From contig NC_092317.1 in assembly GCF_036785885.1 (NCBI RefSeq), positions 7,380,501 to 7,444,500 on the forward strand: 64,000 bases of DNA. The letters are read 5' to 3'. The DNA comes from Coffea arabica (Eukaryota; Streptophyta; Magnoliopsida; Gentianales; Rubiaceae). The notes beneath the pieces were generated by a model. It did not search any database and was not told where the DNA came from. It saw nothing but the letters and a program-made list of their open reading frames with translations. A program made the position numbers and the translations under genes. This document shows, in pieces, positions 663-33,500 of the stretch; position 1 is the first letter of the stretch; each line of letters opens with the position of its first letter.

Positions 663-682
663 GAAACCCGCAAGCGGGTTTC
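663..682. repeat. Perfect hairpin, copy 2
   Basis: Identical to the palindrome at 445-464, including the flanking 'aggc..tattta'. The two copies form a direct repeat 218 bp apart inside the LTR-like remnant. Confidence 0.9.
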
Positions 683-6223: not shown

Positions 6224-6297
6224 TTGCATTAAAAGCCTGATCCTACCTTGTCAGATACAGAGTACATGTGACCAGCATCGGCTCAAACAAGAGGTGT
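6224..6297 (+). repeat. Diverged direct repeat, copy 2
   Basis: The partner of 5886-5958, offset about 338 bp. It lies just upstream of the LINE insertion point but outside its target-site duplication, so it predates or is independent of the insertion. Confidence 0.8.
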
Positions 6298-6402
6298 CTA
6301 TGTTTACAAGTACTTCCTGGTTGGCATACACATAAAGCCATAACTTGCCCACTGTGAGGTATATTACATTAGCCGAAAAAGAGGACCATATTTTCAAGTC
6401 TC

Positions 6403-6418
6403 AACTGTCAACTTGATT
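6403..6418 (+). repeat. LINE target-site duplication, 5' copy
   Basis: The 16-mer aactgtcaacttgatt is identical to 11088-11103, directly after the poly(A) tail. The two outer bases AA at the 3' copy could belong to the tail, so the duplication is 14-16 bp. Confidence 0.93.
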
Positions 6419-6420
6419 GT

Positions 6421-6861: not shown

Positions 6862-9800
6862 TAGTTGCGGCGTGGAATTGTCGAGGGGCAGGGAGCTCCT
6901 TGACTATTCCCTGTCTTAAGGAGGTAATCCACCTTCACTCCCCTAATATTATTTTTTTATGCGAAACTAAAAACCAAAAAAAATTTTTAAATGGCTTTAA
7001 AAGGAAAATAGGATTTGAGGAAATGGCTTTAGTGGATCCTGTAGGTAAAGCTGGTGGTCTTGCTGTTTTTTGGAAAAAGGCTACCAATGTTTTGGATGTT
7101 TTATCTACCCCCTTTACTTTGGAACTTATGTTGAATATTGATAATGATGCTGGGACCTGGTGGTGCATTTTTGTTTATGCTAGCACTGATGATAATATGA
7201 GGAAGAACCAATGGGATTTTTTGACTAATAGGAGCAAAATCTGGGGTAAAAACAAAGTTTTAATTGGGGATTTTAATGACATTATTTCCAACGATGAAAA
7301 ATGGGGGGGCAGAGTGAGGCCTAATTGGACGTTCTCTGACTTCAAAGGCTTCATTAACAACAATGAGCTCCTGGATATTGGTTTTGAGGGCCTCCCTTGG
7401 ACTTGGAGTAACCTGTGGGAGGGGGATGGAGAAATTAAACAGAGATTGGATAGAGCTCTTGCAAGCGAAGAGTGGTGTGAAGTGTTCAAAGATGCAAGAG
7501 TGACCCATTTTGAAGTGGAAGCATCTGATCACAACATCCTCCTCCTGGAGACAGAGCCTAGAATCAGAAAACCAAAAAGAAGATTTCACTTTGACTCCAG
7601 ATGGTTGCAATACAGGGAAGTGGAGGGCATAATCCAAGAGGCGTGGGGTAAAAACCAAGTGGGGTCTAGAGGAGTGAGAATCAGCAGGAAGATCAAACAG
7701 TGCAGAATGAATCTTTCAGCCTGGAGTAGAACGCTGAAGCTAAATAGCAAAAAAGAAATCAAAAGAATCAAAGAGGAGATTCATGCTACAAGGTCCAGGA
7801 ACGGTAACAATGCTAAAGAGGCCATTAAAATGCTTAGGAAGCAGCTTTCTGAAGCTTATAAACAAGAGGAACTTTATTGGAACCAGAGGGCTAGAATCAA
7901 TTGGCTTCAAAAAGGGGATAAGAACACAGCTTATTTTCATGCTGTGGTGAATGGCCGAAGGAAGCGGAATAGAATTACCAGGCTTGAGAAGGAGCAAGGG
8001 GGTTGGTGCACAACCGAGGAGGAGTTTGGAGAGGAGATTACTCAATTCTATAATCAGCTTTTCACATCTTCGAAGCCATCAGACTTTGATGAGATATTAA
8101 ATGGTATTCCGAGGACTATCACTGAGCAGATGAATTTGCAACTTACCAGACCTGTTACTGAGAAGGAAATCAGAATTGCTGTGTTCTCCATGCACCCAAA
8201 CAAATCCCCAGGGCCTGATGGTATGTCCCCTGTGTTTTTTCAAAAATTTTGGAACATTATCAAAGTTGATATTATTGATACTATCCAAGGATTTTTTCAT
8301 TCTGGCTTCCTCTCCAAAGCTATCAATGAGACACTGGTCACTCTTATTCCTAAAATAGACAACCCCCTCAATCTTGCTCACTTTAGGCCTATCAGTCTGT
8401 GTAATGTTTTTTACAAAATAATTTCCAAGATTTTGGTGAACAGACTCAAACCTCTTCTTAACTCTTGCATTAGTTACTCTCAGGCAGCCTTTGTTCCTAA
8501 TAGGCAAATACTTGACAATGTCATGGTTGCTCACGAATATATGCACTGGCTGAAATAAAAAAGGAAGGGGAAGGAAGGGTACATGGCCATTAAGCTTGAC
8601 CTTTCCAAAGCCTATGATAGAGTCGAGTGGAATTTCCTTTATGCCATTTTCTGTAAAATGGGATTTGCCCCTCTGTGGATTAGATGGATGCATAGCTGTC
8701 TTTCCTCTGTGTCCTATTCTTTCAATATTAATGGTGTGAAGCGAGGGTATGTTAATCCTTCTAGAGGAATTAGACAGGGAGATCCCCTTTCCCCGTACCT
8801 ATTTCTGTTCTGTGCTGAAGGGCTTTCTAATCTCCTAAACAATGCTGTCAGTAACAAACAAATTTCAGGTGTCAAAATTGCCAGACAAGGTCCCAATATA
8901 TCCCATTTGTTTTTTGCTGACGACTCTCTCATTTTTTGTAAAGCTAATGGTGATGAAGCAGGGCACATAAAAGAGATACTGGAATGCTATGGAAAAGCCT
9001 CAGGACAACAAGTCAACATCAACAAATCAGCAGTCATCTTCAGTAAAAACACAGGCAGCAGGGAGAAGGAGGAGGTGCTACAGAAATTAGGAGGAATCCA
9101 ACAAGTTACACAAGGAAAGTACTTGGGCCTACCCCTAGTGGTTGGAAGATCGAAAAACAGCGTGTTCAGATTCATTAAAGAAAATTTGATGTCTAGGTTG
9201 CAGAACTGGAAGGGGAAATTGCTGAGTAATGCAGGGAAAGAGGTGCTACTCAAGTCAGTTGCCACTGCTCTTCCATCCTATGCCATGTCCGTGTTCAGAT
9301 TATCAAAGAGCCTGTGCAAAGAGCTAAGTGGTTTAATGGCCAGATTTTGGTGGGGAAATGATCAAGGGGAAACAAGAATGCATTGGAAGAAATGGGAGGA
9401 TATTGCTGATAGGAAAGAAAATGGTGGTCTTGGATTTAGGGATCTGCTCTGTTTCAATGAAGCTTTGCTTGCCAAACAAGTTTGGCGACTTATTACCTGT
9501 CCCAACTTGTTAGTAAGTAAAGTCATGAAAAACAGATATTTCCCTAATTCCAATATCTTTCAATCCAAAGTAAAAGCTGGAGCTTCATGGATTTGGCAAA
9601 GTTTGCATAGCTCTATTAAGTTGCTTGAAAGTGGAATCTGGAAGCAAGTTGGGGATGGATCAACAGTGGAAATATGGGAAGACAGATGGTTAGATATTTC
9701 AAAAAATGGAAGAATCTCCTCCCCAAAACCAAATGGCTACCAACTAACCAAAGTTAGCAGTTTGATCAAGGGGAGGAAATGGAACAATGACATCATTCAA

Positions 9801-11012
9801 GGACTGTTTTCAAAGGAAGAGGCAGAGGCGATTATGGCTATTCCCCTTAGCGTATTCCAAAAGAAGGACAGATTCAAATGGAGATTTACAGATAATGGTT
9901 GCTATTCTTCTAAATCTGGGTATGCTAAGGCCAAAGAGAGATTCAAAGAGAGCAGTGAGAAAAATAAGGCGAAGGTAAACTCCAGTACAAACAAGGAAAG
10001 ATCCAAGGTCTGGAATCAACTTTGGGGTCTGAATATCAAACATAAAATTAAACATTTCTTGTGGAAATGTCTTCATTGTATCCTCCCAACCAATGAGGAA
10101 ATTTTTAGAAGGACAGGCAAGGGTGATCCGTTATGCAAATGCTGCGGGGAAGAACCAGAAACGACTGAACATGCACTTTTTCACTGCAAATCTAGAGTGC
10201 TGGCTTGGGCAACATTTCCTGTCTCCTGGGACGGCATCGAAGAACATAACTGGAACTTTTGGAAATGGTGGGAACATATGCAGGGTGCCAGAGCAAGAGA
10301 GGATGGGATTAAACACATTGAAATTACAGCAAATTTCCTCTGGCAAATTTGGAAGGCAAGAAACGGGTGGAACTTTAACCAGGATCTAAAAGGAAGTGAC
10401 CTGATATCCAAAAAAGCAATGGAAGAATGGATAGAGTTTGATGAAGCAGGAAGGAATTCAGAGGTGACCAATGGTACGGGCCCCCAACCAGAGGACAGAC
10501 AGAGCATGTTAGCTGGTCTAATGGAACAACATGTTTCCATTATGTATACGGATGCAGGAATGAATCAAACCAGAATGAAAGCAGGAATTGGAATCATTGC
10601 TAAAACTATCAATGGCAGGATTCTGACGACTTGGTCTATCCCGCAGCCAGGAGGTAGAGATGCAGCTGAATTGGAGGCTATCGCTATTAGAACAGCTCTG
10701 AGCAAGGCTATTGAGGAAGATATGACATCCTTATTGATCCTCTCGGACTGCAAAGCAGTGGTGGATAGGATCAATTTAGGAGGCCATGGTCTAACCTCTC
10801 TGGACATGCTCATTGAAGACATAAAGCAGTTGAGTCTTTCATTCTGGAAATGCTCCTTCTTTCACATAAGGAGAGAATTGAACCTGTGTAGCCATAGGCT
10901 AGCTAAGTTTGCTGTTAACTTGGTACATGAAACTAGGTGGAAGCAATCCTTCCCTGTGTGGCTTAACAAAGAAGCCCACAATGATTTCCTGGCAGTTGCC
11001 AGCCTTTTGTAA
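6858..11012 (+). pseudogene. LINE ORF2 (endonuclease / reverse transcriptase / RNase H), one premature stop
   Basis: The frame starts at ATG 6858, inside the ATGA that ends ORF1. Endonuclease motifs are visible: WNCRGAGS, CETKNQ, GDFND and SDHNILLL. Reverse transcriptase motifs follow: NKSPGPDGM, PISLCNV, AIKLDLSKAYDRVEW (motif A), GIRQGDPLSPYLF and FADDSLIF (catalytic FADD). Next come the zf-RVT region (CKCCGEEPETTEHALFHC) and a C-terminal RNase H (YTDAGMN, AELEAIAIRTAL, LSDCKAVVDRI). A TAA at 8556-8558 interrupts the frame eight codons before MAIKLDL of motif A; both sides are in the same frame. A single A-to-T change (AAA to TAA) could explain it. No other stop or frameshift is seen up to TAA at 11010-11012. 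It is therefore a nearly intact but inactive copy, unless the stop is read through. Confidence 0.93.
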
Positions 11013-11087
11013 ATCTGCTATGCAGACTAATCATTGAATTATATAATACAGCTGAAGTTTGACAAAAAAAAAAAAAAAAAAAAAAAA

Positions 11088-11103
11088 AACTGTCAACTTG
11101 ATT
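11088..11103 (+). repeat. LINE target-site duplication, 3' copy
   Basis: An exact copy of 6403-6418, directly after the A-tail. It marks the downstream edge of the LINE insertion. Confidence 0.93.
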
Positions 11104-12086
11104 AACTCGTGGATAGACTATACTACTATGAAAATTAAGCATTGCCTAACACCGAAGTTCAGCATTTAACATAGACATTCAGCCATAAAAACAGGAAGGG
11201 TAGTGGTAGGCTTTGGCATTTCCTGACATCTCAAGCAACGTTATTTGCCTCCATGAAACACTAGAGAGGAGTTAAAATAGAAAATAGTTCTGAAATCAGA
11301 GGATTGAGTCGCACACAAATGGCAAATTTCTCCTGAAGTGTGCTTCCTTTGATTTGCAGGTTCACCTACTGCCAAGTTGCTATTTAGTTGCTTAAAGTCA
11401 CAATTTAGAAGTATTGCTTCCAAATGCTAATATGCAGCAAGCAGGAGGTATGTCCATTTCAAAGGAAAAGAGTGAAGAAAGCTATGTCCTTGGTCTTTAC
11501 CAGAAACGTTACTTGCTACAGTAACCAATGGTTCACTGATTCTCTAGATGATCTCGTAAAAATATTTAAATTCGCTACATCCGCTTTGCTGTAATTGAAT
11601 TCTATCAAGGGAAACTGTTAAACTGACTGGTACAGCATGTATAAACATCAAAATTACTCGATTAGGGAGACAGAGAAGAACGAGAATAGATGCTGATCTA
11701 GTGTATGATCACATATAAAACCTGCCTGGACTCCAGCAAATTCTAGTGTTTATTTCGACTTTGTAAATGATTGTCTGGAGAGACATTTGATGATTCCCTT
11801 TTGCTCTTCTACCCACATACAACCAATTCACCATGTGGAACGTGGTAAAATGACATTCAGATTGCTAAGAGTAGACATGGCCAGGAATCGCAGCTTACAT
11901 CTCAAATAGCTGGCTTAGATATCATTCACATCTTCCATTATTTGGGGATTCTTAAACGATGTTGCTAGTTGAATTTGACTGCAGGTGGTAGTTGTAAACA
12001 CACAGGTTCAGCCAGTCATCGAGACGTTTCTTCAAAAAGATTCAGGGCTTTGGGGCCTAATCCAGTGTGATTATATATCTTACCCA
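11104..12086. other. Intergenic, likely 3'UTR of ORRM6 at its right end
   Basis: No coding frame or RNA gene is supported on either strand. The rightmost few hundred bases are expected to hold the 3'UTR of the minus-strand ORRM6 gene, whose stop is at 12087-12089. Confidence 0.5.
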
Positions 12087-14517
12087 TCAAGTCAATTTTG
12101 GCTTTTGCTTGAGGCTTTGGCGAAGCTCTGATTTACTTTTAGCAAATTCAACAAATATTACCCTGCCATCCAGGAACTGAGAAGGTGTTTGTAAGTAAAC
12201 TTCGCGTCAGGAAAAACTTTCACTCCCACTAGGCAACTTTCATATCAAAGGATGTCAACAGTGTATCAAAGAGCTCTAGATCATAAATTCTAGAAAGAGT
12301 ACACAAGATTCGATAACCAAACAGGTGGAAGACATCATGTAGAATATGCTGGGAGTGCATTGATATCATGTATTGAAGTCTACTCGGAGCCCAAGTCATA
12401 TTCAAGCATCATATGTCTGTAGAGTTGCAAATTTAGTGGATGCCATTTGTGTTAGTCACAAAAGATTTGCATTCTTTATGCATCAGCAGACCCCAGATGC
12501 CAAAAATTTCACATAGACATGCCTATTAAATGCTCCAAATTTTCTTCCCAACAAGATAGACCATGATAGAGAAAGATCAGATAATTCTACCGCGAGAAGA
12601 CAGCTCAAAGCTGAAACCTTTCAATATTACAGCATTTGAAACAGCCGTCTTTAAGCACAGAATAGCATGAAACTCAAAAGGCTGCCTGTACTCTGCCTCT
12701 CCAACACTTGGACAGCAAAACAATGGATCACAAGTGTATTCAAATCTGACTCCATTCCAGTGTGTACAGAATTTGGAAACTCTAGTCACATTTGCTTTAA
12801 AAAAAAAAAAAAAGAACAAGCAAGATTGAGAATGGCAAAACTTTTAAATCATTTCCTCAAAAAAAAAAAAAAAACTTTTAACCATTAACATGCGGAGAAA
12901 ACTTTGTTATAACAGCACAAGGTACCAGTGTCATATTATTTTGACATATCTATATTAAGTTTTTGTCCAGACAATTTCCTCAATGACTATCCAAATATTA
13001 ATATTTTTATCGCAAATGAAAAGAGAAAGATTGTTGGTTTCATTCCTATTCCTAATCCTAATATTTTTCTTTTCCGGTCTTCTCCTCCTTCTGCTGCTAA
13101 TCTTATTCCTCTTTATCCAAAACTCCCTGCGCTCCTCCCTATCCTTCTTCTCTTCTCCTTCTTCATCAATTATATATGCACATACAAGAAGGGAAAAAAT
13201 AAAGTAGAAGAGCAAACACAAATGCAGATCATGTGCTGTGCCTCCTTCAGCATCTTTCACTCCCAATAATTCCCTCTGTACCACCACCGTCAATATCAAA
13301 CTACCACGGCAGATGTGCCTACTTTCATCAGCTGTGTCAGCCTAATCCCGACACCTTGAAATTTGAAAATAACAATGATAAAGATGTTCGAGTAGATTGC
13401 AGGCAGAGTGATATTGGTTGGTGGATGCTGAGGAGAGGGAAGAGCGGAGAAAATTAGGGAATTAAGAAAATCTGTCGCAGAGGAAGAAGAAGATTCAAGA
13501 AGTCGATTTCTAAGAGGCATCGATTAAAGTCAACCTTACAAAATCGGTTTCCTCAGTTCATTAACACCAATAAAACCAACAATATGTCAATTGGTTCCAG
13601 TAAACATATTAACATTTGGGTGTATAACCCAGAGCTTTGCAGTTGCCAAATTTCAGGTCAAGCTGAAGTAACTTATGAGTCTTGAGTCTATGACGACCCA
13701 AGACCTAATGCCAACATTCCTATATTGAACTACTAATGAAATGTTCTAGCATACCTCTGAAACCTAATAGTTCAAAAACCAGAAGTAGACCAGAAACTGA
13801 AAGATAAATTACATACACCAAATACACAAACCAGACAAATATTTCATCCAAGTCAACAATACAAATACACTTGATGAACAAATTTAGAGTACCTTGCCAT
13901 GCATCCCCTCAATGGCTTTCTGAGATTCCTCCTGCGTAGCATAGCGAATGAATGCAAAACCTCTCGGTCGATTAGCGATTTTATCCATTACCAAGTTCAC
14001 TGCACAAAAAAAAAAAGAAAAAAGCTAATTACTAGTCGTATATACCAAGAAAACAGAAAAGAAAAAGACTATTTATTGGGATTTGAGAATTCTGCAGCCC
14101 TTCTCACCTTCTAAGAGCTCGCCAAAAGCTTTGAAGGCATTTGTCAAGCTCTCCTCTGTGGTACGAAACGACAGCCCTGTAACAAAATATACATCATAAA
14201 ACCAACAGTAATAATCCTGTTTGGGACATTTCAGCGGGAAAGATGAGAGTGAGGAGAGAGCGCAAACCGCTGACAAAGAGCCTGGTGGAGGGATTGAAAT
14301 GGGTTTTGGACAACGGCAGCGGCGCAGGAGGGAGACACGATACTGTCGTGAAATGACATATCCGGGTTCGAGAGAATCGCTGTGCTGGGAGTCTTGTTCT
14401 ATCGGTAGTTGTCAGTCGAGTAGGTTGAATTCGTCTTTTCGTTTCAGAAAAAGAAATGCTACTACAAGCGGCTACGGGCACTCTGGTGATGGTTGATGTT
14501 GCTGCTGCTGCTGCCAT
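12087..14517 (-). CDS. ORRM6: Organelle RRM domain-containing protein 6 (RNA-editing factor)
   Basis: Minus-strand exons in order: 14517-14268, 14176-14108, 13999-13893, 12176-12087 (171 residues, GT-AG introns; the last intron is about 1.7 kb). The first 60 or so residues are rich in Ser, Thr and Arg and poor in acidic residues, like a chloroplast transit peptide. One RRM follows: RNP2-like LFVSGL (about residues 80-85) and RNP1-like RGFAFIRY, then EGMHGKFLDGRVIFVE. The order matches Arabidopsis At1g73530 (ORRM6), which is known to be needed for C-to-U editing of plastid psbF and accD transcripts. The last exon (FLDGRVIFVEFAKSKSELRQ) is only 90 bp and lies far from the rest, so automatic annotation could miss it. 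The start at 14517 is the first ATG giving a plausible transit peptide; an upstream in-frame ATG at 14697 would add a poly-Gly stretch encoded by a C23 tract and is less likely. Confidence 0.9.
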
Positions 14518-15189
14518 AATCGATAGGAGACGACGCCGGCGCAATTGAACCTGGCAAAGTTGGGAATTGGGACCTGGCTGAAGTGGGGTGGAAGACGAGA
14601 GCCTTAGGTCTTTTATGTCCTTCGTGTCTGCCTCGACAATTGGGTTCCCAGAACCCCCCCCCCCCCCCCCCCCCCCAAACACACCACAAACTACCAAAAA
14701 AAACCACCCCAGTAAATGGCAAATGAACTACTTTTTTCTTTGGTTTATTTAACTTATTTAGCTTTAGATTTATGAAATCAACTTTGCAGAATGAACGATT
14801 TCCAAAATCGTAAAACTCAAAAGAAAACAAAAAATGAAAAGGTGATAACTATTTAGTACTCCATTACTTCGAAGGGAAAAGGGGAAGAAAACCTTAAATA
14901 GACGTGAAACAAAATTTGAGGCACTCAAGCCAATTTACAACATGATCAGGTGTGACGCATTTTTCAAAACAATCGCATCCAGTATGACATCTACAAGTAT
15001 CAAGCAATACAAAAAATTCTGCCACACGGACCATACAGGTTACAACTCTTTCCTGAATGTAGTCTCCAATACCATCTTGGCCTGTTTCTGCAGAATAGTT
15101 GAAATGAAAGAAACAGCCACTTCTCACTTCCATAAGCAGTCCAGGGAGGTGAGAACAGCAGGCCCTGTGCAAGTCTTGGAACCTTGATG
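14518..15189. other. ORRM6 promoter side and BCCIP 3'UTR
   Basis: A 672-bp spacer between two minus-strand genes. The left part, with the C23 tract, is the 5' flank of ORRM6. The right part, down to about 14890, is probably BCCIP 3'UTR. No further gene is seen. Confidence 0.55.
14654..14676. repeat. C23 homopolymer tract upstream of ORRM6
   Basis: Twenty-three consecutive C on the plus strand (G23 on the sense strand of ORRM6), about 140 bp upstream of its start codon. It lies in the promoter or 5'UTR. Such a tract can form a G-quadruplex and is prone to length change or assembly error. Confidence 0.9.
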
Positions 15190-17961
15190 TCATGATTCGT
15201 CAATCAAAGAATGCAACTGCTTCCGGAATATGCCAACTTTACTTGCATCAACAGCCATGACTAAACCCATAGGGCGGTAATCTTTTAGCTGCAACAATGA
15301 GAAAATACAGGATAACTGTTAGGAGAAGAGTGGAATACATAACACAACTAGAAGTAATTGCTATATCACTCAATCGTACAAGACTGAACTATTACAAATG
15401 TCAAAAAAATTAAACAAAAATGAAAAAACGAGCAGAATTATTTGTATTCTTTGGGCATTGGAAACATTAAGCAAAATTTAAGTCATGTTCAAAGTAATTA
15501 TTTCACACACTCAGAAATGATCACTTCCTTTCCTCAAGAGATCAAAGAAGAACAGCCAAAAGCATGCTCTCTACCTCCATCCAACACTGCAACTTGTGCA
15601 CCAAAAGGAGGAGAACAGTAAACCAATGCTTACTTGAAATCACACAAACTCTAGAGCTAGCAGACATTCTCCAAACAACTAGTTCCTCTATCCAACGATT
15701 ATTAGCCTCATGTCCCTTTGGTGCTGTCCCAAGATTGTTCGCAAGACAAACAGAAGAATTTGATTAACATTATCAATAAATTACCAACTGTTAAAAGAGT
15801 TTGGATTGCTCAACTTTTTCCCACCAGAAAAGAAGTATTACTATTATGTCCTGAGTAAAAGAGTACAAAAAGAGGTCAAGAGAACATCTTTTAAGCTCAA
15901 CCATACTTAATCTGCAAATCACCCACCTTAAAACAACCCAATCGACTTATCATTGCAACAGTTACCATGAGAATTGTTCAATGTTCATAAATTTGTCTAA
16001 TCATTTGAAATAAGATGCTGCTCGCACATCCTTAAATAGCCAAATTAGAAAGTAGGCCAAAACATGGAAGCAAACTGAATAAGACCTGAATGTGCAACTA
16101 GAAATTATACACAATAGTGTAAACAACACACCGTGAAGGAGTCAATAAGCAAAAAATCAATGACATGAATCATTAAACTCAGCCAGCAGGATTACTAACC
16201 TCATTAGCTGTCACCTGCTGAGTGTGTAACGGGAAACTGAAGGACCAGGAGCTCAGCTGAATATTAATTTGGAGAAAAAGTCAGGTGCCATGTTCGAAGC
16301 ACAGAATGAGCGAAGATAGAAAACCATTGGTACCTGATCAAAAAGTTCATCTTCTGGCTTGCTATATATTATATCTTCTTCCCTATCTCCACTCTTCCCC
16401 ATTTTCTTGTTTGCATTCTTATGCTACAGTCGCCGATCCAGATACAAAGTCAGAAAAAGAGAACTCAGAATCTTCTAGACAACCAAAACAAAGTGAGAGC
16501 TGGAGTGTGAAATGTTAAAGAAGCATACCTTGTAGATTTTGCTGATCATTAGGTAAGACTTAAAACAAAAGGATTTTTGGAGCTCCTCTGTTGGCTTCAG
16601 AAAGCAGAAAAACACAAAGCTCAAGCCACTGAAATAACATTTTGTAGCAATTTACCAGAATATCCAACCAAGCTCATCCATTTACACAGATTTCTTATCT
16701 AACCTCATCTTCTGTTGCCCATGAGACTTCATCAAATAAAGCATCATAAAGGGGAGGCAAAAGCTGAGGAGGAAGATTAACTACACGTTGGGATACCAAT
16801 AGTCCGACATCTTGTGCCTTCTCTCCCAAAAGAGACCTCAAATTAGAGACCGAATCCTCTTTGCATGACTTAAGCAAAAATTCCTTCAGCTCGATCATAC
16901 ATTTATGATCCTGCAATGACCAGAGCATTATTACTTAAACTCTTGGACAATGCAGTTTCAATATACATGACCTCCAATATTGAGGTTATTCTGATTAGTC
17001 CTATAATTTAGAAGTAAAATTTGAGACTAGAGAAGAAAACTGAGGAACCTTGACTTTTGACATTAAAAAATGTAACACAATATCTATACAAAAATGATCT
17101 GCCACAGTATTTGGGCTACAAACTGCATAGACAACTTTAACTTGCCTTGTATCTTCCCATATTAAGAGCAGTAACAAAAGCATAAACTCCTTCATCTTCA
17201 TCATCCTCTATCTTGACAACTGTCCCGACGGTAGTTTGTCCCAATATCAAATCTACAAAGCCACTTAAATCCCATAGCTTATCATCCATGTAGGTTTGAA
17301 GGAGGACTTTCACTCCATTGAAATCATCAGGTTTTGGATCAAAGAATGAAAAATCTGCCTGGACAACTCCCTTCAGAGAAGAATTACAATGTTAAAAGGA
17401 CGTCAACTCACTTGAGTGCAGTTTATAAGTCAGAACTTGAATGCAGTTTATTCATCGGACATAAAATATCCCAAAGGATATATTACTCGTAATTGATGAT
17501 CACACAACACATAGTTAGGTTTATAGTTAAAATGGATTAGAAATTGTTTTACAACTTTATAGATGCATCTGATAATAATGAAACTGGTTTTTTAAAGACG
17601 AATTGCTTACATCAAACTCTCCATCATCCGAAGAATCTGAGGTTTCGCCATGATTCTGAAATGTACCATCCTTTACCACCCCATTAGCTGAAATTTCCAC
17701 GTCTGAATTCATGTTTGATATCGTTTAGGACAAAATTCCAAGCTACATAACCAGAAAACTATAGTACTACTGACACTAAATTCTACTAGGACAAGTAGAA
17801 AATTTCGAACAACCTGAAGTGCTGGGAGCAGACATGTCTTTAATAACAGAGTCCAAAATTTGGTGCTTCATCTTTTTGGTAGGGTAAAGAAAAGCCATTG
17901 AGCGACCAAATGGAGAAAAACTCACGGGTCGTTGCCGGCGCCTCCTGGGTTTTCGTGGCAT
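15190..17961 (-). CDS. BCCIP: BCCIP/BCP1 homologue (BRCA2 and p21-interacting protein family)
   Basis: Minus-strand exons: 17961-17814, 17702-17611, 17370-17146, 16910-16704, 16594-16529, 16423-16334, 16256-16200, 15288-15190 (327 residues). Animal BCCIP binds BRCA2 and p21; yeast Bcp1 is a nuclear chaperone for ribosomal protein uL14 (Rpl23) and is needed for export of the kinase Mss4. A Lys/Arg-rich N-terminus (MPRKPRRRRQRP) looks like a nuclear signal. An acidic stretch (SDSSDDGEFD) follows, then the conserved core: QADFSFFDPKPDDFNGVKVLL, LVSQRVVNLPPQLLPPLYDAL, FKSYLMISKIY and DYRPMGLVMAVDASKV near the end. Length fits the family. Intron 3 has a GC donor (AAG|GCAAGT); the only nearby GT would break the frame. 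A 5'UTR intron is likely at 17965-18306 (donor AAG|GTACC, acceptor TTGCAG just before the start codon). Confidence 0.93.
17144..17146 (-). other. BCCIP: GC splice donor of BCCIP intron 3
   Basis: On the minus strand exon 3 ends AAG and the intron begins GCAAGT. It joins GRYK to DHKCMIEL in phase 0. Using the GT four bases further on would shift the frame. The extended consensus typical of GC donors is present. Confidence 0.85.
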
Positions 17962-19809
17962 TTTCTGCAAAATCAACGCAACTTTTAAGCTCATTTTGGC
18001 TTTTGCAGATTCTGTGACAGGGGAAAAAAACAAAAACAAAAACAAAATTCTCTCCTTTCACCCTCCCAGTTCTTTACTTGGCCCAGCAGTGAATCCAACC
18101 ACGAACGTTACCGAAATTGAGGAGGAATGAAAGATTACTGCAGCTAACATAATTATTAAAAGAAACCATTTGGCCATATAAAAAGCGAAAAACAAAGTTT
18201 CAAAATGCAAATGCGAAGAAAAAATTGAGCAGAAGAGGTTTTCAACCATCTAATGATGATCAAAGTAAGAGATAATTTATAATTAAATCAGTAATTAAGT
18301 AGGTACCTTGATAATTTCAGCTCGTCTACGCGGCGGCGATTGGTGGTGGTGCCCGGTGGTGTAGCGGAGGTGGAGGTTAATGGGTTTAGGGTTTAACGGC
18401 AAGCCAGAAACCTCTGTGGTTAGGACTTAGCCTTGGGACTCCGTTTTAAAATGTTGTATAATTTAGCTTTTAAAGACTTGATTAAAGAAAAAAGACATAA
18501 TTTCAAAAGTTTCTAACAGTTTCACTGCCGTCCCCGAGGTTTTAAGAATTTCACTATCCTCACTTACAACTAATTTTTTTAACAAATCAGCCCAATTCAA
18601 AAAAGAAAAATCAACAACAAATTCACTCCGCCTTTTGTTTGTCGCACTCTGATTATCATTTATATTATATGATTTTCATTTATTAAATTATATGATAAAA
18701 AAAATTATGGGTGCCTGATTAATAAAAAGTGAACTACGATTACATTTTCCTTTGTTCAATTGGTGCCAAAACGTAATTCAATTGATAAAACATTAATTAG
18801 ATGATCATAAAATCCATAGATGGCTTTTAAGCCTTTTCATTTGAACAAACTGAAACCAAGCCCTCATACACGATTTAGATTCTTTTCCAACGAGTGCTAA
18901 TTACGTTATGGAAGTTGAATTTAATACCACAGGGAAATACAATGTTGTAAAACTCAAACTGGACAGCGAATTGGCTAAACTATTGGGTCAGAGGTCAACT
19001 GATCAGATTGGTCGGACCATTCTCAAAAACCCACTGACATCAGCATGATATTATAATTATTTTATATTTTTATAAGTTTCAAAAATATTGAAATTAAATT
19101 TTTGGTAATATTTGGTCAATCATGAAAAATGTTCCAAAAATATTAGCTTTCAATCAAATATACACCTAATAATTATGTATAAAAATGTAAATTCTTGGTT
19201 AAAATATGTCCATTCTCCAAAACTACTTAAAAAACTAAATTAAAACAAATTAATGCAAGTTGAAATCATTGATGCTAAATTAATGAGATCATAAGGATAA
19301 AAACATCTTAATTTAGAGATCATTTAGGAAAGCAAGTGATTTTGATATTTACACTAAATGGGTGACATTTTCTTATTTTTATTAATAAATGAAAGTGTTA
19401 CAATTTAAGTAACTCAAATTATGTTTTGGGAAAACAAGAAAGAAAAGTTTGAGAATTGGATCAACCAGTAAAATTGGGTCACTGGTGTAGCCGATTTTTA
19501 ATGATTTTGACTGATTTTTTACCAAAGCGATTTTATACTACAAACCAATTTGAAAAGAAGGTCAGTTCATGGTCATGCCAATCCGATCCGGGTCTAATAA
19601 CACTGGGGAAATGTCATACATACGATATGCAAGATTACACATGCATAACTCCAATAAACACCAAGAAAGGAATTTTGTGGGAAGAGACTATCATAAAATA
19701 GTTTTAAAAAAAAACACAGAAAGAAGGGAAATCAAATACTATTGTTGGCATTGAATATGATTGATTAGTTTATTTAGTTTACAATTGAAGACGGAATTGT
19801 GACACCAAA
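17962..19809. other. BCCIP 5' region, intergenic DNA and sucrose synthase 3' flank
   Basis: About 18308-18400 is probably the BCCIP 5'UTR exon (GC-richer, ends in a good donor), with the promoter beyond it. The rest is AT-rich. Around 18960-19020 and 19450-19540 there are gypsy-LTR-like phrases (e.g. 'ggtcaactgatcag', 'ggatcaaccagt') with partial inverted similarity, but I could not define an element. Bases to the left of 19810 should include the sucrose synthase 3'UTR. Confidence 0.5.
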
Positions 19810-22800
19810 TCATGGATTTTGCGAAGAAGATGCACCATCATTTAATCCACCATACAACTTTATCAAGGCATAAAGTAAGATAGAAGTAGAGATGCATAAG
19901 CACAGCCAACTGCAGTAGGGAAATGATGCAGGTTCAGTTCTTGTAATACTTTCATCAAGCTGCTTCTGCCGCTCTTTATCTTTTTCAGCCTCCTCAACTA
20001 TGCTGTTACAAGTTTAAGCAAAACACAACTATGATAATAGGTCCCTTTGGCTAAAGAATAAAAGACAGTAATGGTTGTCAAATTATCATCTCATTAACTT
20101 GTTACACACAGAAAGCAATTTTCTATCCATCCAATCTAACACTTCATCTTCTATTGTGAGCTGAATTGTTTTTATATTTATTTTTTTTCCCATTTTTGAA
20201 ATGCTTCAAGTGTAGAGGTGCAAAGTGTTACGATTCTATTAATTTGAATGTGTAACGTGGAGTAGCCATCGTGTTTTGTGCATAGTTTTTAGTCTTTCAG
20301 GGTGTTTCAAATTACAAGGAATGTAGTAAAAGAGAGGGATGAGTTTAACATGCCTTGGTTCTGGAAGGACTTCTTTTAGTGCTTCTGGTGCTGATTCTGG
20401 TTGTTTGGGAGCTGCTTCTTCTTTTGGTTGTTCGGGCTGTGCAGTTTCTGTCGGTGGAATTTGTTGGCTTTCTTCACTTTTGATGGCCATGTCCTGAGCC
20501 TAGTATAATATACATAAATAAGTCATCTGTAGCTATATTTTCACTGAGCAAATGGTATTAGTGCAGACAGCTTACCATCTTCTTGAACTGCAGATTGTAG
20601 AACAGATCAATGTATCTAAGCTTAGCATTCTTTTGTTCCTTCTTGAATTGCCTCCAGAAGCCATAGGTGGATCCTATATTTAGGACTTTCTTTGCATAGA
20701 TATTCCATGTATAGCTGGAACAATTAAAACAAAAGATTCGATGGATAAGAAAGTAGTACTAATAACACGAGTCATGGAATATTCTTCAGATATTAAAGGT
20801 TCATCTAATTGTACCATTCATATATGCGCCTGAGGCCCTCTTCAGACGTTCTGTTCCAGTGTCCAGATTGTTTCCTACACTTTGCAAAGAAATCAGCAAT
20901 CTTGTTGCTTGTCTCATCACCATTGTAAGGATCAATGTGAAAGCCTGAGACTCCATCCACAATTATTTCAGCCGGTCCTCCTTGAATGGTGGCAAAAGTA
21001 GGTAATCCACAATTCATGGCCTCAATTACTGTCAATCCAAAGGCTTCATACAATGCAGGCTGAACAAAAGCTCCCTTTGTGTCAGCAATGCATCGGTAAA
21101 GTTCACCATTCCTGTTTCTATCAGTCTGAGCTGCAATCCATCTCATTTGATCCTTGAGTTGGTATTTCTCAATTAAAGTATGCATCTTCTTAATTTCTTC
21201 CATTTCTTCCCTATCTTTAGACTTGGAAGGATCGAAACATCCCCCAACAATAACGAGGTTTACCAAATCTCGGAGCCTCTTGTTCTTTCCATACCATTCT
21301 GTCAGTCCTGTAATATTCTTCACTATGTCGATTCTTGACATTGAAAAGATTATTGGTTTCTTCCGGTCTGCAAGAACTCCACTGTTCCAGGAGCAGTTCA
21401 GCTTTAGTGCCAAAATTAGGTAGAACTGACTTATTTTGCAGATACAGGGAAAAGACTTACATATGCTCAGCGTTGTTGTCTTTACTGTACAGTAGCTCCT
21501 CGATGGCGGGATGAAACGAGGTGAATCGCTTCTTTTTCTCAGAAAAGGGGAAGTAGACAGATTGATCAGCTCCAGGAGCAGCAATGTTGAATTTTGGGTC
21601 AAAGACATCGATGCCTGAAACAACTCGATACAGCCCAGGCATTGTGAATGCCGTATGGCTTTCATATTGTCCAGGCCTGGTTTTACTGGATTATGAAAGA
21701 ACAAGAAAAGGTTAGTTCTGGCCATCTTTACTTTGAGCCCCTCGTGACCTATTGTGTCTCCAGGAACGTAAATGGTATTTAACAGACTAACCTTCCAGCA
21801 ATCTCTTGAAATGTGCTGGTAACTACAAAATCGGCAGCATTCATTGCTATTAAATCAGCAGTGAATTGGCAAGAAAAATGGTGCTTTTGATCAAATTCCT
21901 TCCATTTGATATCAGAATCTTCATATTTGGTTTTCTCAAGTGCATGAGCAATTGTTCCCTAATTGAAACTTTTCCATGTTAGATGTTCCACAATTTTCTG
22001 ACAAACACAATGTCACAAATCCGGAAGTATATAAATGATTAATCAAAATGGCCAACCAGAGTTACTCCAAGCTCTCTGGCCATTAGAGATGCGACTAAGT
22101 TTCCATCTGTGTAGTTCCCAATGATAAGGTCTGGTTTACCTTCCAGTAGTTCTAGGACCTTTTCAGCAGCATCCTAAAAACAAGGCAGAGAAGCGATAGA
22201 AAGTAATAAACAACTGATAAAAAAAAAATGATCAAGAATATGTCCCAAATGAATGCAGATTAATCACTTGCCTGGGCAAATCTCTCCAAATGCGGATATA
22301 TATCAAATCGTGAAATCCACTGGCGGAGAACCCCTTTCTCAGTTTGAAAAGGGACACGAACAATCTGGGAGTGTTTGGCGTTAATGATAGGCTCAATCTC
22401 CTGATTACACTTTGTGCCTTGTGCGTCTGGTATGAGACGAGTGACCTGCCCACATGCGAGAAGTTGAAAATTTAGCAGTCTTGTAGTTGTAGCCACCCAC
22501 AAATATCAGCCTGAATTGCGCCCATGCTTACCACTAGAATTCGAGGCCTCACATTCAAGCCTTGTTGCTTGATTCTTGAAAGTAATTCTTCCTCTAGAGC
22601 TTTTACTTGGTCCAGAATGTAGACTACCTTTTCAATGTAACAGATAAGTACAAAATTACTCTTCATTTTGCATTATCAAAACCAATACCTAGTTACTGAT
22701 GCTATTGGGAGCAATGAGTTGGAGAAAAATGTTGATACAAATATGCACCTGGCCTCCAGTATCGGGCAAACCTAGGACATCTGATTGGCCAAAGTACCCA

Positions 22801-24225
22801 TGAATGGAGAAGATTACAACGTTGAAAATAACTGGAAGCCTGCTGAAAAGTGATTCCACGTTTAGGGGGTCTGGAGCCTGAAGTATCTCAGAAAGCATCC
22901 TCATTGTTTCCTTAACTCTTTCTGCAGTATCCCCCCAACCTTTCTCAAAACCAAACTCTTTAAGCCTGGATCATCCAAGTAATCAAATAACATTCAGATC
23001 CTAAAAGCGGGAATATTATCATAACTGTATTAAAAGCAGCAAAGTCTACCTCTGCTCGAAGTTTTGATAAGGTGTGTCTTTTGCCATGGAAGAGAGAAAA
23101 ACTTCAGCAACAATCAGTGCTGTTCGAAGCTTTGTCACCGTGTTCAGGGTGTCATTGATCATCAGATTCTGCAATTTTGAGAAGTTAAAAGTAGAATGTT
23201 ATAGTCAGCTTTAAATGCACTATTTCAGGAAGAGTTGGCATTGACAATTGCGTAAACTTTTTCTAATTGCCAACCTCTCCTTGGTGATTAAGAGTTAGCA
23301 AGTATTCGACCAATGGTTTAGCACTCTCAGGATCACCAATGAACTTTGAAGCCATGAACTTTGAGATGTAGCTAATTCCCTTGCCAACTGAAGAAGTGAG
23401 TGCCAGACGTGGAATACCAAAGTCAAATGCTCTAAAATCTAGTTCCAGAGCATTTTCATCCTTTGACCTGTAGATGAAGATATTACCATGTCACGAACTT
23501 CAAAAACTGATTTCATAATGAGTTATATTCTCAAAATTGCAATACTAACTCATCAGTGTCATTTCTCTGCAATGTCCTGCTTACCAGTTTTCATCGTAGA
23601 TCATTTCTTTTAGTCTCAGGTATTCGGTTGCAGTAATATTATTAGCTGATAGATCCTCGGCATTCACCTTAACATAGTCGAAGCATCCAGAACCGTATCT
23701 CACTGCAAAAGCAACATAAGGCGGTACAACAGCCGCTTCCTGCAAATTTAACCAGAAAATTAGTTAGATCAGCAATGCCTAATCTGCTTTTTAATCATTA
23801 CGATTGCTTGTTGTGGAGCTTTTGGCAGGGAGCTGATCAGCTGACAGTCAAGTCGAAAAGATAAATTTCCTTTTACCTGTGTGGAACTCAGGATTTCACC
23901 GAGTGATACCTCCAAAACCTTGGCTCTGTCAGCCCTGTCCACGATTACACTCTCCATCTCTTCCATCAAATGCTGGTGTTTCATCAGCCTCGGTCCCATG
24001 CTAGTAAACCTTCACAAATCACAATACGTTTTATTTGCATTTTTTCCAAATTCAAGTGCCAAACACCGAAAGAAGTTAGAACTCTGCATGGTAAAGATTT
24101 GCAACCAAATAAAGAAAATCGCAATGATGAAGACTTGATTATCACCTGGCAAAGCATCTCTTCATATGGTACCGACTCTGCCTTAATGCATCAGGCATGA
24201 GACCATCTACCACTGCAAAAGCCAT
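19810..24225 (-). CDS. SUS6: Sucrose synthase, SUS III clade (SUS5/6-like), with C-terminal membrane-anchor tail
   Basis: It catalyses the reversible reaction sucrose + UDP to UDP-glucose + fructose. Minus-strand exons: 24225-24146, 24009-23877, 23739-23585, 23467-23275, 23168-23050, 22965-22749, 22627-22532, 22445-22272, 22173-22057, 21958-21792, 21685-21461, 21381-20815, 20714-20576, 20499-20354, 20002-19810 (906 residues; SUS1 types are about 805). N-terminal regulatory domain, GT-B catalytic core with [18 protein letters not shown] and the glycosyltransferase E-X7-E motif (E671, E679 in [12 protein letters not shown]). Many residues match Arabidopsis SUS5. After the core comes a Pro/Glu-rich linker (about 795-842), a charged stretch ([13 protein letters not shown]), then a hydrophobic segment [19 protein letters not shown] (about 872-890) and 16 final residues, the layout of a tail-anchored protein. 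Intron 8 has a GC donor (CAG|GCAAGT); intron 14 probably does too (AAG|GCATGT). The 5/6/7 number is by similarity only. Confidence 0.93.
20352..20354 (-). other. SUS6: Probable GC splice donor of the last sucrose synthase intron
   Basis: Joining CCAAG (then intron GCATGT) to the strong acceptor AACAG at 20003-20004 gives a continuous frame into the membrane tail. A weaker alternative (donor CAT|GTTAAA with acceptor GAG|GCT) enters the same frame, so the tail does not depend on which is used. Without splicing the protein would end about 33 residues later at a TAA. Confidence 0.55.
22270..22272 (-). other. SUS6: GC splice donor of sucrose synthase intron 8
   Basis: On the minus strand the exon ends CAG and the intron starts GCAAGT, joining ERFAQ to DAAEKVLE in phase 0. 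The GT four bases downstream would break the frame. The join matches the conserved sucrose synthase sequence. Confidence 0.87.
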
Positions 24226-27528: not shown

Positions 27529-30500
27529 TTAACAATAAAACATAACCCTCTTCACGTTGTCCTTTAGGGCAGGAAGAGGCCGAACATTGACATTTGAACC
27601 CGGTGCACGCGTGCTCCTTGCACCACCCCCAGGACCAACACCACCGCGACTAGCAGCAGCACTACTTGTTACTGAACCACTATCAGATGTCTCTGGCTCC
27701 ATGTAGAATCGCGCACGAAAAGCAGCCAAATGGGCATAATAGGCGGGTGGCACTGCACAAAGGAAGAGTGAGCATCAGCATCGCCCCTCTCAACATACTT
27801 ATTCAACTTGGAAGAAACAGAAAAAATCTTACCAATGGAAACAGAACGAGTGCATCTTGCATAACTGCAACAGAAATGAAGAACAATTAGCTTAACCATC
27901 TAGAGGAACTAGGCAAAACATTACAAAGAGCAGAGTGATCCAACTACGTATAGCAGAGATCGTTTGTAAGAGATTGTAGGTGATCAGCTGAAAAGTTGTT
28001 CTCATCCCACAAGACATGATAATGTGCTGGTCGGCTGGTACCCTGTTAACAAGAATTCTCCATGACCATTCAATATTCATCATTATATATAAAGCAGTTA
28101 ATTTGTCTTCAACAGGAGAAAGCAAGATATGTCGTACCTGTATTCCAGCATGGCTGCAAAGGTAGAAATCAAATTCCGTTGGATGGCAGATCTTTGAATC
28201 TACAACAGTACCTGAGATTTCCCACAAGGGAGAAAATTTAAACATCAGTTTGTACCACTATCAAAAAAATTTTTGAGCAGTGTCATACGAAAAAAGATTA
28301 CGCACCAGGCAGAATATTTCCACTTCGGTCAACTGCATTCCGGTCATGATGGTTATTGGCAAACAATCTTGTATGGTGACGTTTCTGAACAACAACAAAA
28401 GTAACTGGGGGCTGATAGTTTGGTTCCAAAGAAGCACATGCCTGTAACAAACACAAGAAAACAGTAACTAAGATGCGACATATTCCATCTTAGCTGAGAG
28501 ATAGAAGGCAATCAGCGAGAGAGGCTTTTACCCTGCGTATTGCATCAAGTTCATAGAGTAATACTTGATAGAACTGCCCCTCACTGACACCATCTCTGCA
28601 AAAGGAGTACGACAAATCAGGCATAACAAGTGAATGGAAAAAACACAGGGATTGCAGCGCATCCACAATACCTATAAAAAATAATCCTCTGCGGTTTCTG
28701 TCCAGTTGCTTTACGGAAAGATATGAGGAGTTCCCTGTCAACACAAGTATAGTCGTCAGCTTGTAGACCAGAAAATGTGAAAAGTAATTGAGAACCTTCA
28801 AACAAAAAAGAACCAAGAGCGCGCAGAAGAAGACAGTCAAGGAAGTGAAATAGGAAGCGGCTGGAGGAGAGAAATCATACTTGATCATGCCACCTGTCAC
28901 AGTTCCCCTGCCAGGATCTTGCCAAGCTTTAAACAGATCTTGAATCAGCTCTTGACGATGTGCTTGAGCACTAACCAAACCAGCATATTTGGTAACTTCA
29001 GGCCAATCCTGAGATGCAACCACCTAGACTCGAACACAAACAACAGTCAATCATGGCACAATGAATCCCAACAGTTGCAGAGAGAGAGAGAGAGAGGGGG
29101 GAAGAGGGAGAGAGGTGCAACGAAAGCTGAAGCAGGATGAAGAGTGTCATACAGCTGCAATGGATGGGCTCGAATCCTCGCCAGGGTGGGGATGTGTAAC
29201 GTCAGCGCCAAAAATTATAGTAGGTCTGTCACTGACTAGGGGTATACGACGAGAAAGAGCATCAACAAGCACTGTGTTTCTTCCTCCAACCTTCACATTG
29301 ATCTTCAATGCAACATTGGCAAGATATTGTTTGCTCAGCCTGAAGACGTGCTTTGTCAGACAACACTGGGAGACAATTCCAAGATCTGTCTCACAAATCC
29401 GTTTCAAATCACCTGTTAAAAGGTCCAAAAAAAAAAAAGCACCAATTAGATGAGAAATAAATCATACGTAATATATCTGGAACACAGAAGACGATTTGTA
29501 ACAAGTGCTTCACCATAAAGAGAGCCATTATTGTCGGGCAAAATAACAATCAGCAAGTCCAGTTCCTTCTTTGGAGGTGGAAGGTTAGTCAAGGCTTCAT
29601 GGAATCTAGCTTTTAAGGCTCTTTCAACTTGATCAGGACGAACATACATTGGGGCCAAAACAGGATGAGGATTAAAGTTCTGCACAAATGAACAAACAAG
29701 TTCCATTTGTTAATATGGAAGTTTAAGATCTCAATCAGAGTGAAAGAACATCTCAAAACTGTACATACCATTCCAGAGGTTATACACATCTGGGCCAGCT
29801 CATGACAAAAGTCACGAACTGCTACATCTTTCACATTGCGAGAGAAATTTACACAAATCCAGTTATTTACTGTTCCTCCATTAACCATTTTCTGCAAGAC
29901 GTCAATGGTATTATAAGTACTCAGCATCCTAATTACTTTCATTAGAAGCAAGAACTCAAAAAGATAAAAATGGATAATATGCCAACTACAAAGACTACAA
30001 CAAATCCTTCCACACGAGCATCACAAACTTTTGTTTCTAATAGACAACTACTTCCAACATTTTACATGTAACATACTCCTCATACAATTGACAATAGTAT
30101 GCTACGTTAATCAAAATGCACAATTCATAACCACCAGCAAATAGACATGTCCCAGATGGCTGATACTTTTTAGCAACCATGTAGAATTAGCTTCACCTTC
30201 TTTTTCCCTTTACATAAGACTCTGAACAAGTGGACCAAAGGGTGGATTAGCACAAACACAAGGACTAGCATGATAACTTGCATCAATACAAAAAGAAAAT
30301 TTTCAGAGTTTATCATCACATCCTCCATTTTTGAGTCTTATTGGCAACCAGAAAAGAATCACTGTACAAGATTAACCCAATACACGTTAACATAACAGCT
30401 CTACTTGATGGAAATAACCTTGTTCATCATGTTCCATTGCCCGACTTGTGGCAGACAGTCCTTCTCCCGACCAGAATCGTGGTACTTGAGCTAGAAATTA

Positions 30501-33500
30501 GAAGTGCAGGGGAAAAAAAGATTAAACCAACAAGGTACCATACTGCGTAAACATTCAAGACCGCAATAGGCTGGAAAGTATATATGATATCCTTACCCGA
30601 GGAGCAGGTAAAATGCGGGCTTCAACTTGAGCCAGCTTCTCACTAATCCTGATACCGAACTCTTTAGCATATGGGTCATCAGCATAGGCATTATGACGTA
30701 CAGTCTGAAAGGGAAATACGCAAGATATTTGAAGCACTTCCAAAGGTCCAAAAAGTTATCCAAAAAGACAATTTAAATGAAAATACAAAATTATAGCCAA
30801 ATATCTTTTGACCACAAAAAATGAAGTACTTGCTGATGGAGACAATTTATTCTAAACCTTACCTGAAGAATATCACGTTCCCTCTCCTGAGGACGCTGGC
30901 AGGTCACTTTCAAAAGAGCAGTTATCTGTCTCTCATTCAACCTCTTGGAATACCTCTGGCCCTCAACAATCTTACAGACCTAAAACATAAAACATTATGT
31001 AAAAACAAGAGTCATAAACTTCAGAGAGAAATAGAACATTCGCATGTAAAAATGAAGTCAACCTCCATTGGCAAGTAATTTGGCCTTTGCTGATTTCCAA
31101 CTTGTAAACAAGGCAATTGCGTATGATGAATCACAAACCCATATGTCTCATGGAAGTACTCAACAACAGATTTCATTGTACCCCTCTCGTCGACAGGAAA
31201 ACTAGCAAAAATCAAAAAAAATAATTACCAGAAGCACATCAACAACTTTATATCAAGTTAACTAAGCATTCCAAATAGCCAGCCAGATCCTTGCCATCTA
31301 CAATTTTAAGAGCAAGAACCCAAAATTTGAGGTGAAGGAACACACACTAAGCTGTACATGCACATAGGGAAAAAATTGTTTTATCTTTAATGCCAATTTA
31401 CATGATTCTGTTGTGCAAAATGTAACTTCATTCCATTTCATTAATTAAATTGAAGTATCGATGTTAATGCAGCACTCTTTTGTCTTTTTATTCTGCATTT
31501 TGAGTTACTGTAGATCTTGGCTACTTTCTTTAGTGTAGAGAGTGAACCATCAAGAATATGCAGGACCAAAAATGTACTCTCCCAAATCCCGCTTTCAAGC
31601 CATGCAGGATAACCAACATATTGATTGATGAGAACAGGCAATTCTTACGACAGCTCGCGTGTTGCTTGTGATGTAAGACCAGAGATACGATATTTTCTGC
31701 GCATGTTTCCACGATGTGTAACCTCCACCCTCACTCCCCTCAGTGCTTTCTTAATCTGCATAATTGTCCAAACATCAGTACAAACACTGGTCAAAGACGC
31801 ACATACAGCAACACATTCCCAAATCAAGACTTCTCCATCTGACTACTGAGTACCACTTCCACAGAAATAATAATAATTGCCTAAGACATTATACATAGGG
31901 GTCAGACAGGTCTGACACACCAGGACACAAAATAGGTCTTGAGATGCACAGCATGGATCAACGATATTGCAGTCTTTGAGACTTTTTTGTGCCAAAAACA
32001 GTATTTCACAAATTCAGAATGCTTCAAAATTAACTCTCAATAAAAGTCAAGAAAATAAGTTCACACACCACAAAAGAAGAAGTTACAGAAACAGTGACAA
32101 TTTTTCAATGTTTTAAACTCAGTAATGTTGCTTAAAAACATCTAGTATTTCAAATATTCTTTTAAAAATAATAATAACAAAACATTTCCCAAATACGACA
32201 TTCTAATGAATCAGCTTCATAAATTTCTTTTTCCATTTCCAAAAGGTAATCGCATCCAAAAGAATTTCACTATAGTACCAGTAGTATCTTATTTTTATTT
32301 TATCGAATGCTATAACATACAATCTTCAAAACCACGAGCATAATCCTAGTAATCTTAAATGGTCCAAATATTTTTATCTCTAATCTTAGTGTAAATATGA
32401 GGTGAAATACTCATAAAATACCTGTTTTGAATACCAATTTTCAGGGGTAAAAAAAAAGACAGATTGTGACCACCATACCATTAGCCATCCTTCAAAGGTT
32501 AATAACAGAGACGAAAAACCTGTAATCTATGAGAACACAAACACGAGACAAGCTGTATGTAACATAACAGCTTTTTTGCTTCATAACAAGAATCCCACAT
32601 TAAAAAGGTAGCAGATACGATAAAGATGAGAACAGCATTAAGCTGAACGTTCAACAAATTTGAGGCCCAGGGTTAAAAAATATGGATGGAAGCCACAAAA
32701 AAGAAAAATCTTACCTTCACACGATCAGCATCAGACAAAGGTCTTGATGATACATCCCTGGCAAGAAGCTGAGTCACAAATTCGATAACGGGAAGTGGCT
32801 CGATGAAAGCCGTGGATGACATATCTGCTCCACAAACCACAACAATTACAATTGGGGAATAAACAGACAATTAATCACTATGATGGTCAAAATAATCATC
32901 ACAAAGAAACTGACTCCAAACAGAAAAGTGACAGCTTTTAACAAGTCAATGATCTACATCCATATAATAAGACAGTAGAAACCTTCCGACCAATATTGGG
33001 AGACCAAATTATATACAACAAAAACTACAAGAGCAATATGGAAGTATTTCTCACCAATATTTAGTGATAACCCCATCTGAGTAGGCCGAATGCTTTGATA
33101 AAAACCACGCCAACTTTCCAGACCTTCACCTAAAGGCTGCCTTCTTCCTAAATCAGGGGAATAAAAAGAGCGGCCCACAGGAGTATACCTTTGAAAAAAA
33201 AAATCAGAACAGAAATTAGCAAATACCTAAATGACAGCAGATTGATAAGATGATTAGAACTGCAAGAATGGAGCCAAAAAAAAGGTATGGACTGCATACC
33301 GAGTTGTCGGTAATTCACGAAGAACAATGTCCAAAACTTGAAGAGCTTCTTGAGGGGCATCTGCTTGTCTTCCCTGCAGAAACATCCCTAAATGGTGCAA
33401 GTCTGCACGCGCTGCCAATTTGATTACAACTTTAAAATCCCTCTCTCTCCTGCATCCATGAAAAAGCATGTGATAATCAATGAAATTTCCATTAAAAAAG

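Follow-up and report, generated by a model that had tools for sequence, protein, structure and literature searches.

A sucrose synthase gene with one additional 3' exon

The window, i.e. the whole stretch of 64,000 nt of Coffea arabica that was analysed (C8:7380501-7444500), lies within a 1.2-Gb genome whose plant genes bear introns. On its minus strand, from 24225 to 19810, we observed a sucrose synthase (SUS) gene with 15 coding exons, which in the spliced model comprise 2721 nt and encode 906 aa without an internal stop (Table 1). Its neighbours include an AGO1-like Argonaute and an RPB2-like RNA polymerase subunit.

Table 1. Positions of the features discussed, counted from the first letter of the window
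Feature	Position	Strand	Basis
Sucrose synthase exons 1-5	24225-24146, 24009-23877, 23739-23585, 23467-23275, 23168-23050	-	spliced model
Sucrose synthase exons 6-10	22965-22749, 22627-22532, 22445-22272, 22173-22057, 21958-21792	-	spliced model
Sucrose synthase exons 11-13	21685-21461, 21381-20815, 20714-20576	-	spliced model
Exons 1-13, regulatory part and GT-B catalytic core	20576-24225	-	matches to Pfam, TIGR02470 and AtSUS1 3s27
Exon 14, hydrophilic P/E/K/Q-rich linker, ends EVLPEP	20354-20499	-	spliced model; mostly low pLDDT
Intron 14, GC-AG (AAG/GCATGT ... TAACAG), modelled	20003-20353	-	ends identical in C7 homoeologue
Exon 15, encoding a charged helix (844-863), the hydrophobic segment (872-890) and the last 16 residues; TGA at 19812-19810	19810-20002	-	spliced model
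Codons of hydrophobic segment 872-890, predicted tail anchor	19861-19917	-	hydropathy, AlphaFold2 helix 871-897
AATAAA 35 nt beyond the stop, possible poly(A) signal of the tailed form	19769-19774	-	motif match only
AATAAA within intron 14, A-rich run, possibly an early poly(A) signal that would yield an 880-residue protein lacking the segment	20177-20182	-	motif match only
AGO1-like Argonaute	29150-34616	-	Gly-rich_Ago1 and Piwi matches
RPB2-like RNA polymerase subunit	52999-53292	+	
LINE-type retrotransposon	6840-11009	+	endonuclease, reverse transcriptase, zf-RVT and RVT_3 (RNase H-like)
Run of 23 C	14654-14676	+	

The encoded protein matches the Pfam domains SUS_N, SUS_EPBD, GT-B_Sucrose_synth and Glycos_transf_1, and residues 19-799 of its 906 match the NCBIfam equivalog TIGR02470 with 1198.4 bits (cut-off 810.4). 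The nearest solved structure is AtSUS1 (3s27), with an alignment spanning residues 17-803. The motifs that hold H438, R580, K585 and E675, the catalytic residues of AtSUS1 (PMC11688632), are found in the window protein and align with their 3s27 counterparts.

Having equated the introns with the published SUS numbering by reading of the exon structure, we recognised the gene-structure traits of SUS III: the 12th intron is lost, leaving exon 12 as a single 567-nt exon, the 5th is kept, so that exons 5 and 6 are separate, and one additional exon follows the SUS I-like end. In tomato, SlSUS6 is described with 15 exons, 891 aa and one extra 3' exon, and SlSUS7 with 849 aa and two (PMC8124378); the window gene thus equals SlSUS6 in exon number and is similar in length. 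This match supports the clade III assignment made by the sequence-only reading that preceded this analysis, and the window gene is best read as a sucrose synthase of clade SUS III and of the SUS6 type with a long tail. We take the clade name from gene structure and published descriptions, AtSUS1 being the one named reference in the tree described next.

For the tree we compared ten SUS loci, the window gene and nine others, leaving out nine further weak PF00862 places (E 7e-6 to 2e-4). A FastTree analysis of these ten loci and AtSUS1, with 644-788 of 788 positions covered, grouped the window gene and its C7 homoeologue with the C13/C14 pair (support 1.0) and placed the remaining six loci separately. 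Identity to AtSUS1 is 58% for the window protein and 74-82% for those six.

Splicing into the last exon

The sequence-only reading had described a last exon encoding a charged stretch, a hydrophobic segment of about 19 residues (872-890) and the 16 residues that end the protein, in frame with the catalytic core by two alternative splice choices. The 906-aa model reproduces this arrangement exactly, and both routes into the tail frame were recovered: a GC donor after 20354, which reaches it with 2 of the 17 AG acceptors tried (20002 among them), and a GT donor after 20350, which reaches it with 6 of 17 (including 19992 and 19989). The GT alternative requires an acceptor deeper in exon 15. The GC donor matches U1 at 6/9 positions and the GT alternative at 5/9, the other 13 donors of the gene ranging from 4 to 8. 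The best predicted route is the GC-AG intron CCAAG/GCATGT...TAACAG/CATAG. Two of the 14 modelled introns start with GC, with GCAAGT after exon 8 (22271-22174) and GCATGT after exon 14 (20353-20003), and both donors are identical in the C7 homoeologue.

The codon score of exon 14 resembles that of the core exons. Within exon 15 the hydrophilic half is coding-like (0.34) and the hydrophobic part is not (-0.34); the whole exon scores -0.02, a value that 17.5% of 1004 non-coding stretches, taken without a filter for open frames, also reach, and its other frames, at -0.02, -0.02 and 0.01, score about the same as the tail frame.

The hydrophobic segment

The most hydrophobic stretch of 19 residues is exactly 872-890, with a mean Kyte-Doolittle value of 1.85. 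It follows the charged stretch, which we could confirm, and leaves a C-terminal element of 16 residues with a net charge of 0; the transmembrane-like segment, judged by hydropathy alone, thus lies 16 residues from the C-terminus. Elsewhere in the protein (residues 1-800) the best 19-mer on the Kyte-Doolittle scale is 263-281, at 1.62. On a biological hydrophobicity scale, the flat sum is -0.13 kcal/mol for 872-890 versus +6.74 for the best 19-mer in residues 1-800, all others there being worse. The helical hydrophobic moment of 872-890 is near zero (0.07), which points to a spanning rather than an amphipathic helix. Cys, Ser, Thr and Tyr occur inside the segment, the cysteines on its N-terminal side (873, 877 and 879), and this moderate hydrophobicity together with three cysteines would fit weak insertion aided by S-acylation.

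Single-sequence AlphaFold2 prediction of the last 142 residues returned a mean pLDDT of 67 and a pTM of 0.25, so that only local helices are meaningful. Two were predicted, 844-863 (blocks near 70) and 871-897 (mean pLDDT 90 and 88 in the two central ten-residue blocks, 62 and 57 at the edges), with a disordered linker separating the core from the tail.

To put the hydrophobicity in proportion, an equally or more hydrophobic 19-mer occurs in 35 of the 282 stop-to-stop frames of at least 60 codons in the window (coding frames included), and in 8.0% and 3.2% of 5000 random 64-codon frames at 36% and 45% GC, respectively. Permuting exon 15's own 63 residues gave at least equal hydrophobicity in 50 of 20000 cases, i.e. 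rarely, given the charged composition. The segment is real as sequence, yet its hydrophobicity alone is not beyond chance and is weak evidence by itself, since 3-12% of unrelated open frames reach 1.85.

Searching the genome with the 63-residue tail gave significant matches only to its own locus and to the C7 homoeologue, the third match having an E value of 1.98; we therefore rejected the possibility that the tail was copied from another gene. A PDB search with the 113-residue extension returned 43 matches, the best with an E value of 1 and none useful. A putative AtSUS6 tail sequence contains a hydrophobic stretch of 1.64. Its alignment to the tail of the window protein is not significant, since 200 of 1000 shuffles, and 591 of 1000 when shuffling was done by segment, score as high, and we did not use it as evidence; a literature text search for the letters of this putative tail and for the window segment found no paper.

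The homoeologue and the C13/C14 pair

The window protein and its C7 homoeologue are 99.1% identical over 788 compared residues. C7 retains the donor and acceptor of intron 14 and the stop, its exon 15 has no indel, and codons 872-893 are unchanged (0/66 nt). In exons 1-13 we counted 15 synonymous changes against 7 nonsynonymous ones (pN/pS 0.13); exon 14 differs by 2/146 nt (one of each kind) and exon 15 by one synonymous and three nonsynonymous changes (pN/pS 0.84). Substitutions amount to 4/193 without gaps in exon 15, to 7/351 with 6 gap positions in intron 14 and to 0/200 with 3 gap positions in the 200 nt past the stop. The pair is too young and the changes too few for this comparison to give a sign of selection either way, and constraint on the tail is neither proven nor excluded by it.

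Identity to the window protein is 76.0% for the C13 protein and 74.6% for the C14 protein. In this pair the modelled exon 14 ends at AAAAG/GCATGA in phase 2, as in the window gene, and is followed by two exons versus one in the window gene. The likely extension of the pair (at L016 5562-6270 and L017 5632-6340) is a short basic one, reading AKNVAARRDETPKPETKEKPKPQPLKRRSQSRLQRLFGA in L016, without a hydrophobic segment, which is likewise absent from forms that lack the last splice or retain intron 14. The modelled penultimate exon of the pair measures 24 nt; when it is left unspliced, reading stops at its donor. Because the sister pair lacks the segment in its likely splice form, the hydrophobic tail is, by these models, not a trait of all SUS III. 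The splice from exon 14 to 20002 is probably real and old, since its GC donor is common to two pairs that show 75-76% identity over the cores compared; this shared donor is the best local evidence for it.

As an in-genome control, we allowed free acceptor choice 3' of the C13/C14 exon 14, with 17 acceptor choices each giving tails of at least 19 residues. Hydrophobic ends of up to 2.19 (L016) and 1.78 (L017) were obtained. These ends differ between L016 and L017; the window tail has no indel relative to C7.

Published extensions of SUS III proteins

Almost all SUS III proteins are described as having a C-terminal extension, derived from an ancestral gene with two extra 3' exons and of a function given as unknown (PMC6921546), and the significance of the tomato extension was likewise left open (PMC8124378). 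Cotton SUS III proteins also carry extensions; identity among extensions is poor, and those of GaSus7, AtSus6 and OsSus6 are reported to have little sequence in common with one another (PMC3505178). AtSUS5/6, SlSUS6/7, GaSus7 and OsSUS5/6 resemble the window gene in their divergent clade, in the fused exon 12/13 and in having extra 3' coding exon(s) or a longer last exon. In the number of extra 3' exons, C13/C14 with two are like SlSUS7 and the window gene with one is like SlSUS6 (PMC8124378). Unlike our reading, the accessible portions of these papers name no tail anchor (PMC6921546, PMC3505178, PMC8124378).

In common bean, the available text reports a TMHMM region, obtained from InterProScan, for PvSUS5 (929 aa) and for none of the other six PvSUS, and localisation predictors put PvSUS5 in the cell wall (PMC11688632). 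It is, like the window protein, a long SUS with a C-terminal extension; in that text its TMHMM region is listed without position, discussion or gene class. A transmembrane SUS had been proposed in 1996 and then disputed (PMC6375876), and tomato SUS3, of another subfamily, is reported as non-transmembrane (PMC10850397). The plasma-membrane-associated SUS of cotton and maize share with our reading a membrane-linked cleavage of sucrose beside glucan synthases, but, unlike in the window protein with its tail, their association is ascribed to N-terminal phosphorylation state and partners (PMC6375876, PMC13204778).

Our literature search for a tail-anchored or transmembrane SUS III yielded none among the matches listed, and an earlier description may exist. 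To the question raised by the sequence-only reading, whether such a tail has been described, the answer is in part yes: SUS III 3' extensions are already known and PvSUS5 has a TMHMM region on record, and what we did not find in this search is the anchor reading, with its separation of a SUS6 type from a SUS5/7 type.

Membrane placement and function of the tail

A segment near the C-terminus, preceded by a predicted disordered linker, supports a tail-anchor layout. SNAREs and cytochrome b5 are the familiar tail-anchored proteins; unlike these, the window enzyme would be a tetrameric metabolic glycosyltransferase, an unusual case. It resembles plant tail-anchored proteins in its C-terminal hydrophobic segment and short neutral element and, presumably, in having its bulk in the cytosol (PMC8644595). 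According to the rules described for plants, the ER is favoured when the segment is long and very hydrophobic and the element nonpolar or negative, and mitochondria or plastids are favoured when the element is basic (PMC8644595). The neutral element of the window protein fits the ER rather than mitochondria or plastids, though the predicted segment is only moderately hydrophobic.

Localisation data are available for Arabidopsis. AtSUS5 and AtSUS6 with a C-terminal YFP formed immobile parietal puncta in mature sieve elements, just inside the FM4-64-stained membrane and, in the portion of the study available, without co-localisation with FM4-64; in immature sieve elements they were uniform in the cytoplasm, and the authors call the signal cytoplasmic, suggest that it is trapped in the parietal layer and note that sieve elements retain smooth ER (PMC7242074). 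A 2026 review lists all six Arabidopsis isoforms as cytosolic, which counts against a membrane anchor there (PMC13204778). The sequence-only reading had proposed fixation to the ER or the plasma membrane. The layout and the neutral element suit the first; anchoring in the plasma membrane is not preferred, and the ER or sieve-element reticulum is the better guess because the YFP signal did not coincide with FM4-64. If AtSUS5/6 carry such a tail, its insertion into the sieve-element reticulum would agree with their puncta, although the YFP of that study was placed behind the tail. As the partner enzyme, callose synthase seems likelier than cellulose synthase, because the partners reported for SUS6 are PDLP6, to which it binds, and CALS7, and it acts together with both (PMC11371196).

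We lean, with modest confidence, towards a SUS6-type enzyme that is tail-anchored post-translationally, likely in the ER or sieve-element reticulum, and tethered beside the callose synthase complex. The tail would insert after translation and the catalytic core would stay cytosolic; the target membrane would most likely be the ER, becoming the parietal reticulum in sieve elements. The linker could let the tetramer remain folded while one or more tails embed. With such a tether, sucrose would be cleaved close to the membrane and to the callose synthase complex, and UDP-glucose would therefore be made where callose is deposited, at sieve plates and plasmodesmata.

Several other explanations deserve consideration. 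The most serious, which we regard as possible though doubtful, is that exon 15 is coding and its tail a protein-protein interaction helix, serving partner docking, oligomer contact or binding to P-protein or ground matrix, with the enzyme peripheral and cytosolic. The only moderate hydrophobicity and the Cys, Ser, Thr and Tyr within the segment would suit such a helix, as would the cytoplasmic reading of the YFP signal, trapped in a parietal protein layer off the plasma membrane, and the reported in vitro binding of SUS6 to a peptide of the PDLP6 cytosolic tail. However, a near-zero hydrophobic moment and a location 16 residues from the end are traits of tail anchors, and TMHMM reports a membrane region in PvSUS5.

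We think it decidedly unlikely that intron 14 is retained, or the transcript polyadenylated within it, yielding a soluble 880-residue protein and making the tailed form minor or tissue-specific. The frame does remain open from the start of intron 14 to a stop, with a best 19-mer of only 0.53 there; the intron contains an AATAAA, and the exon 14 donor is a non-canonical GC. Yet this GC donor is kept in the C7 homoeologue and, by model, in C13/C14, intron 8 of the same gene likewise starts with GC, and SlSUS6 is published with an extra 3' exon. Finally, a non-coding exon 15, whose hydrophobic frame would be open by chance in 3' DNA rich in A+T, is very improbable: the chance rates of 3-12%, a codon usage that does not favour the tail frame, the hydrophobic ends in the C13/C14 control and a divergence from C7 not below that of intron 14 speak for it, but the phase-matched splice with a donor common to two SUS III pairs, the published exon structure of SlSUS6 and the transmembrane prediction in PvSUS5 speak against it.

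If the tail indeed anchors the SUS6-type enzyme, it would provide an anatomical reason for the immobile parietal SUS5/6 signal in sieve elements. What keeps sucrose synthase beside glucan synthases has been under debate since the mid-1990s (PMC6375876), and a defined 36-residue tail, which can be deleted or moved, makes the membrane question a simple localisation and rescue test. We further put forward, as a speculation less likely to be right than wrong, that eudicot SUS III might comprise a membrane-anchored, long-tailed SUS6 and a soluble SUS5/7 with a short basic tail (ending KRRSQSRLQRLFGA here), and that the SUS6 tail might tether mixed tetramers to the sieve-element reticulum or desmotubule, where they would make up a callose-feeding unit with PDLP6 and CALS7. 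The immobile parietal puncta would then be an ER-anchored metabolon.

Other features of the window and genome

The LINE-type retrotransposon in the window consists of two adjoining open frames. The run of 23 C lies beside a small minus-strand open frame; its length may be an error of sequencing or assembly. In the genome, the ten SUS loci compared fall into five close pairs, a pattern expected of a recent polyploid, with copies on C7/C8, C11/C12 and C13/C14 and at two places on C2. The two C2 copies, on one contig and oppositely oriented, are separated by about 1.6 Mb, and a further weak PF00862 match with seven stops at C8:18649521 may be a broken copy.
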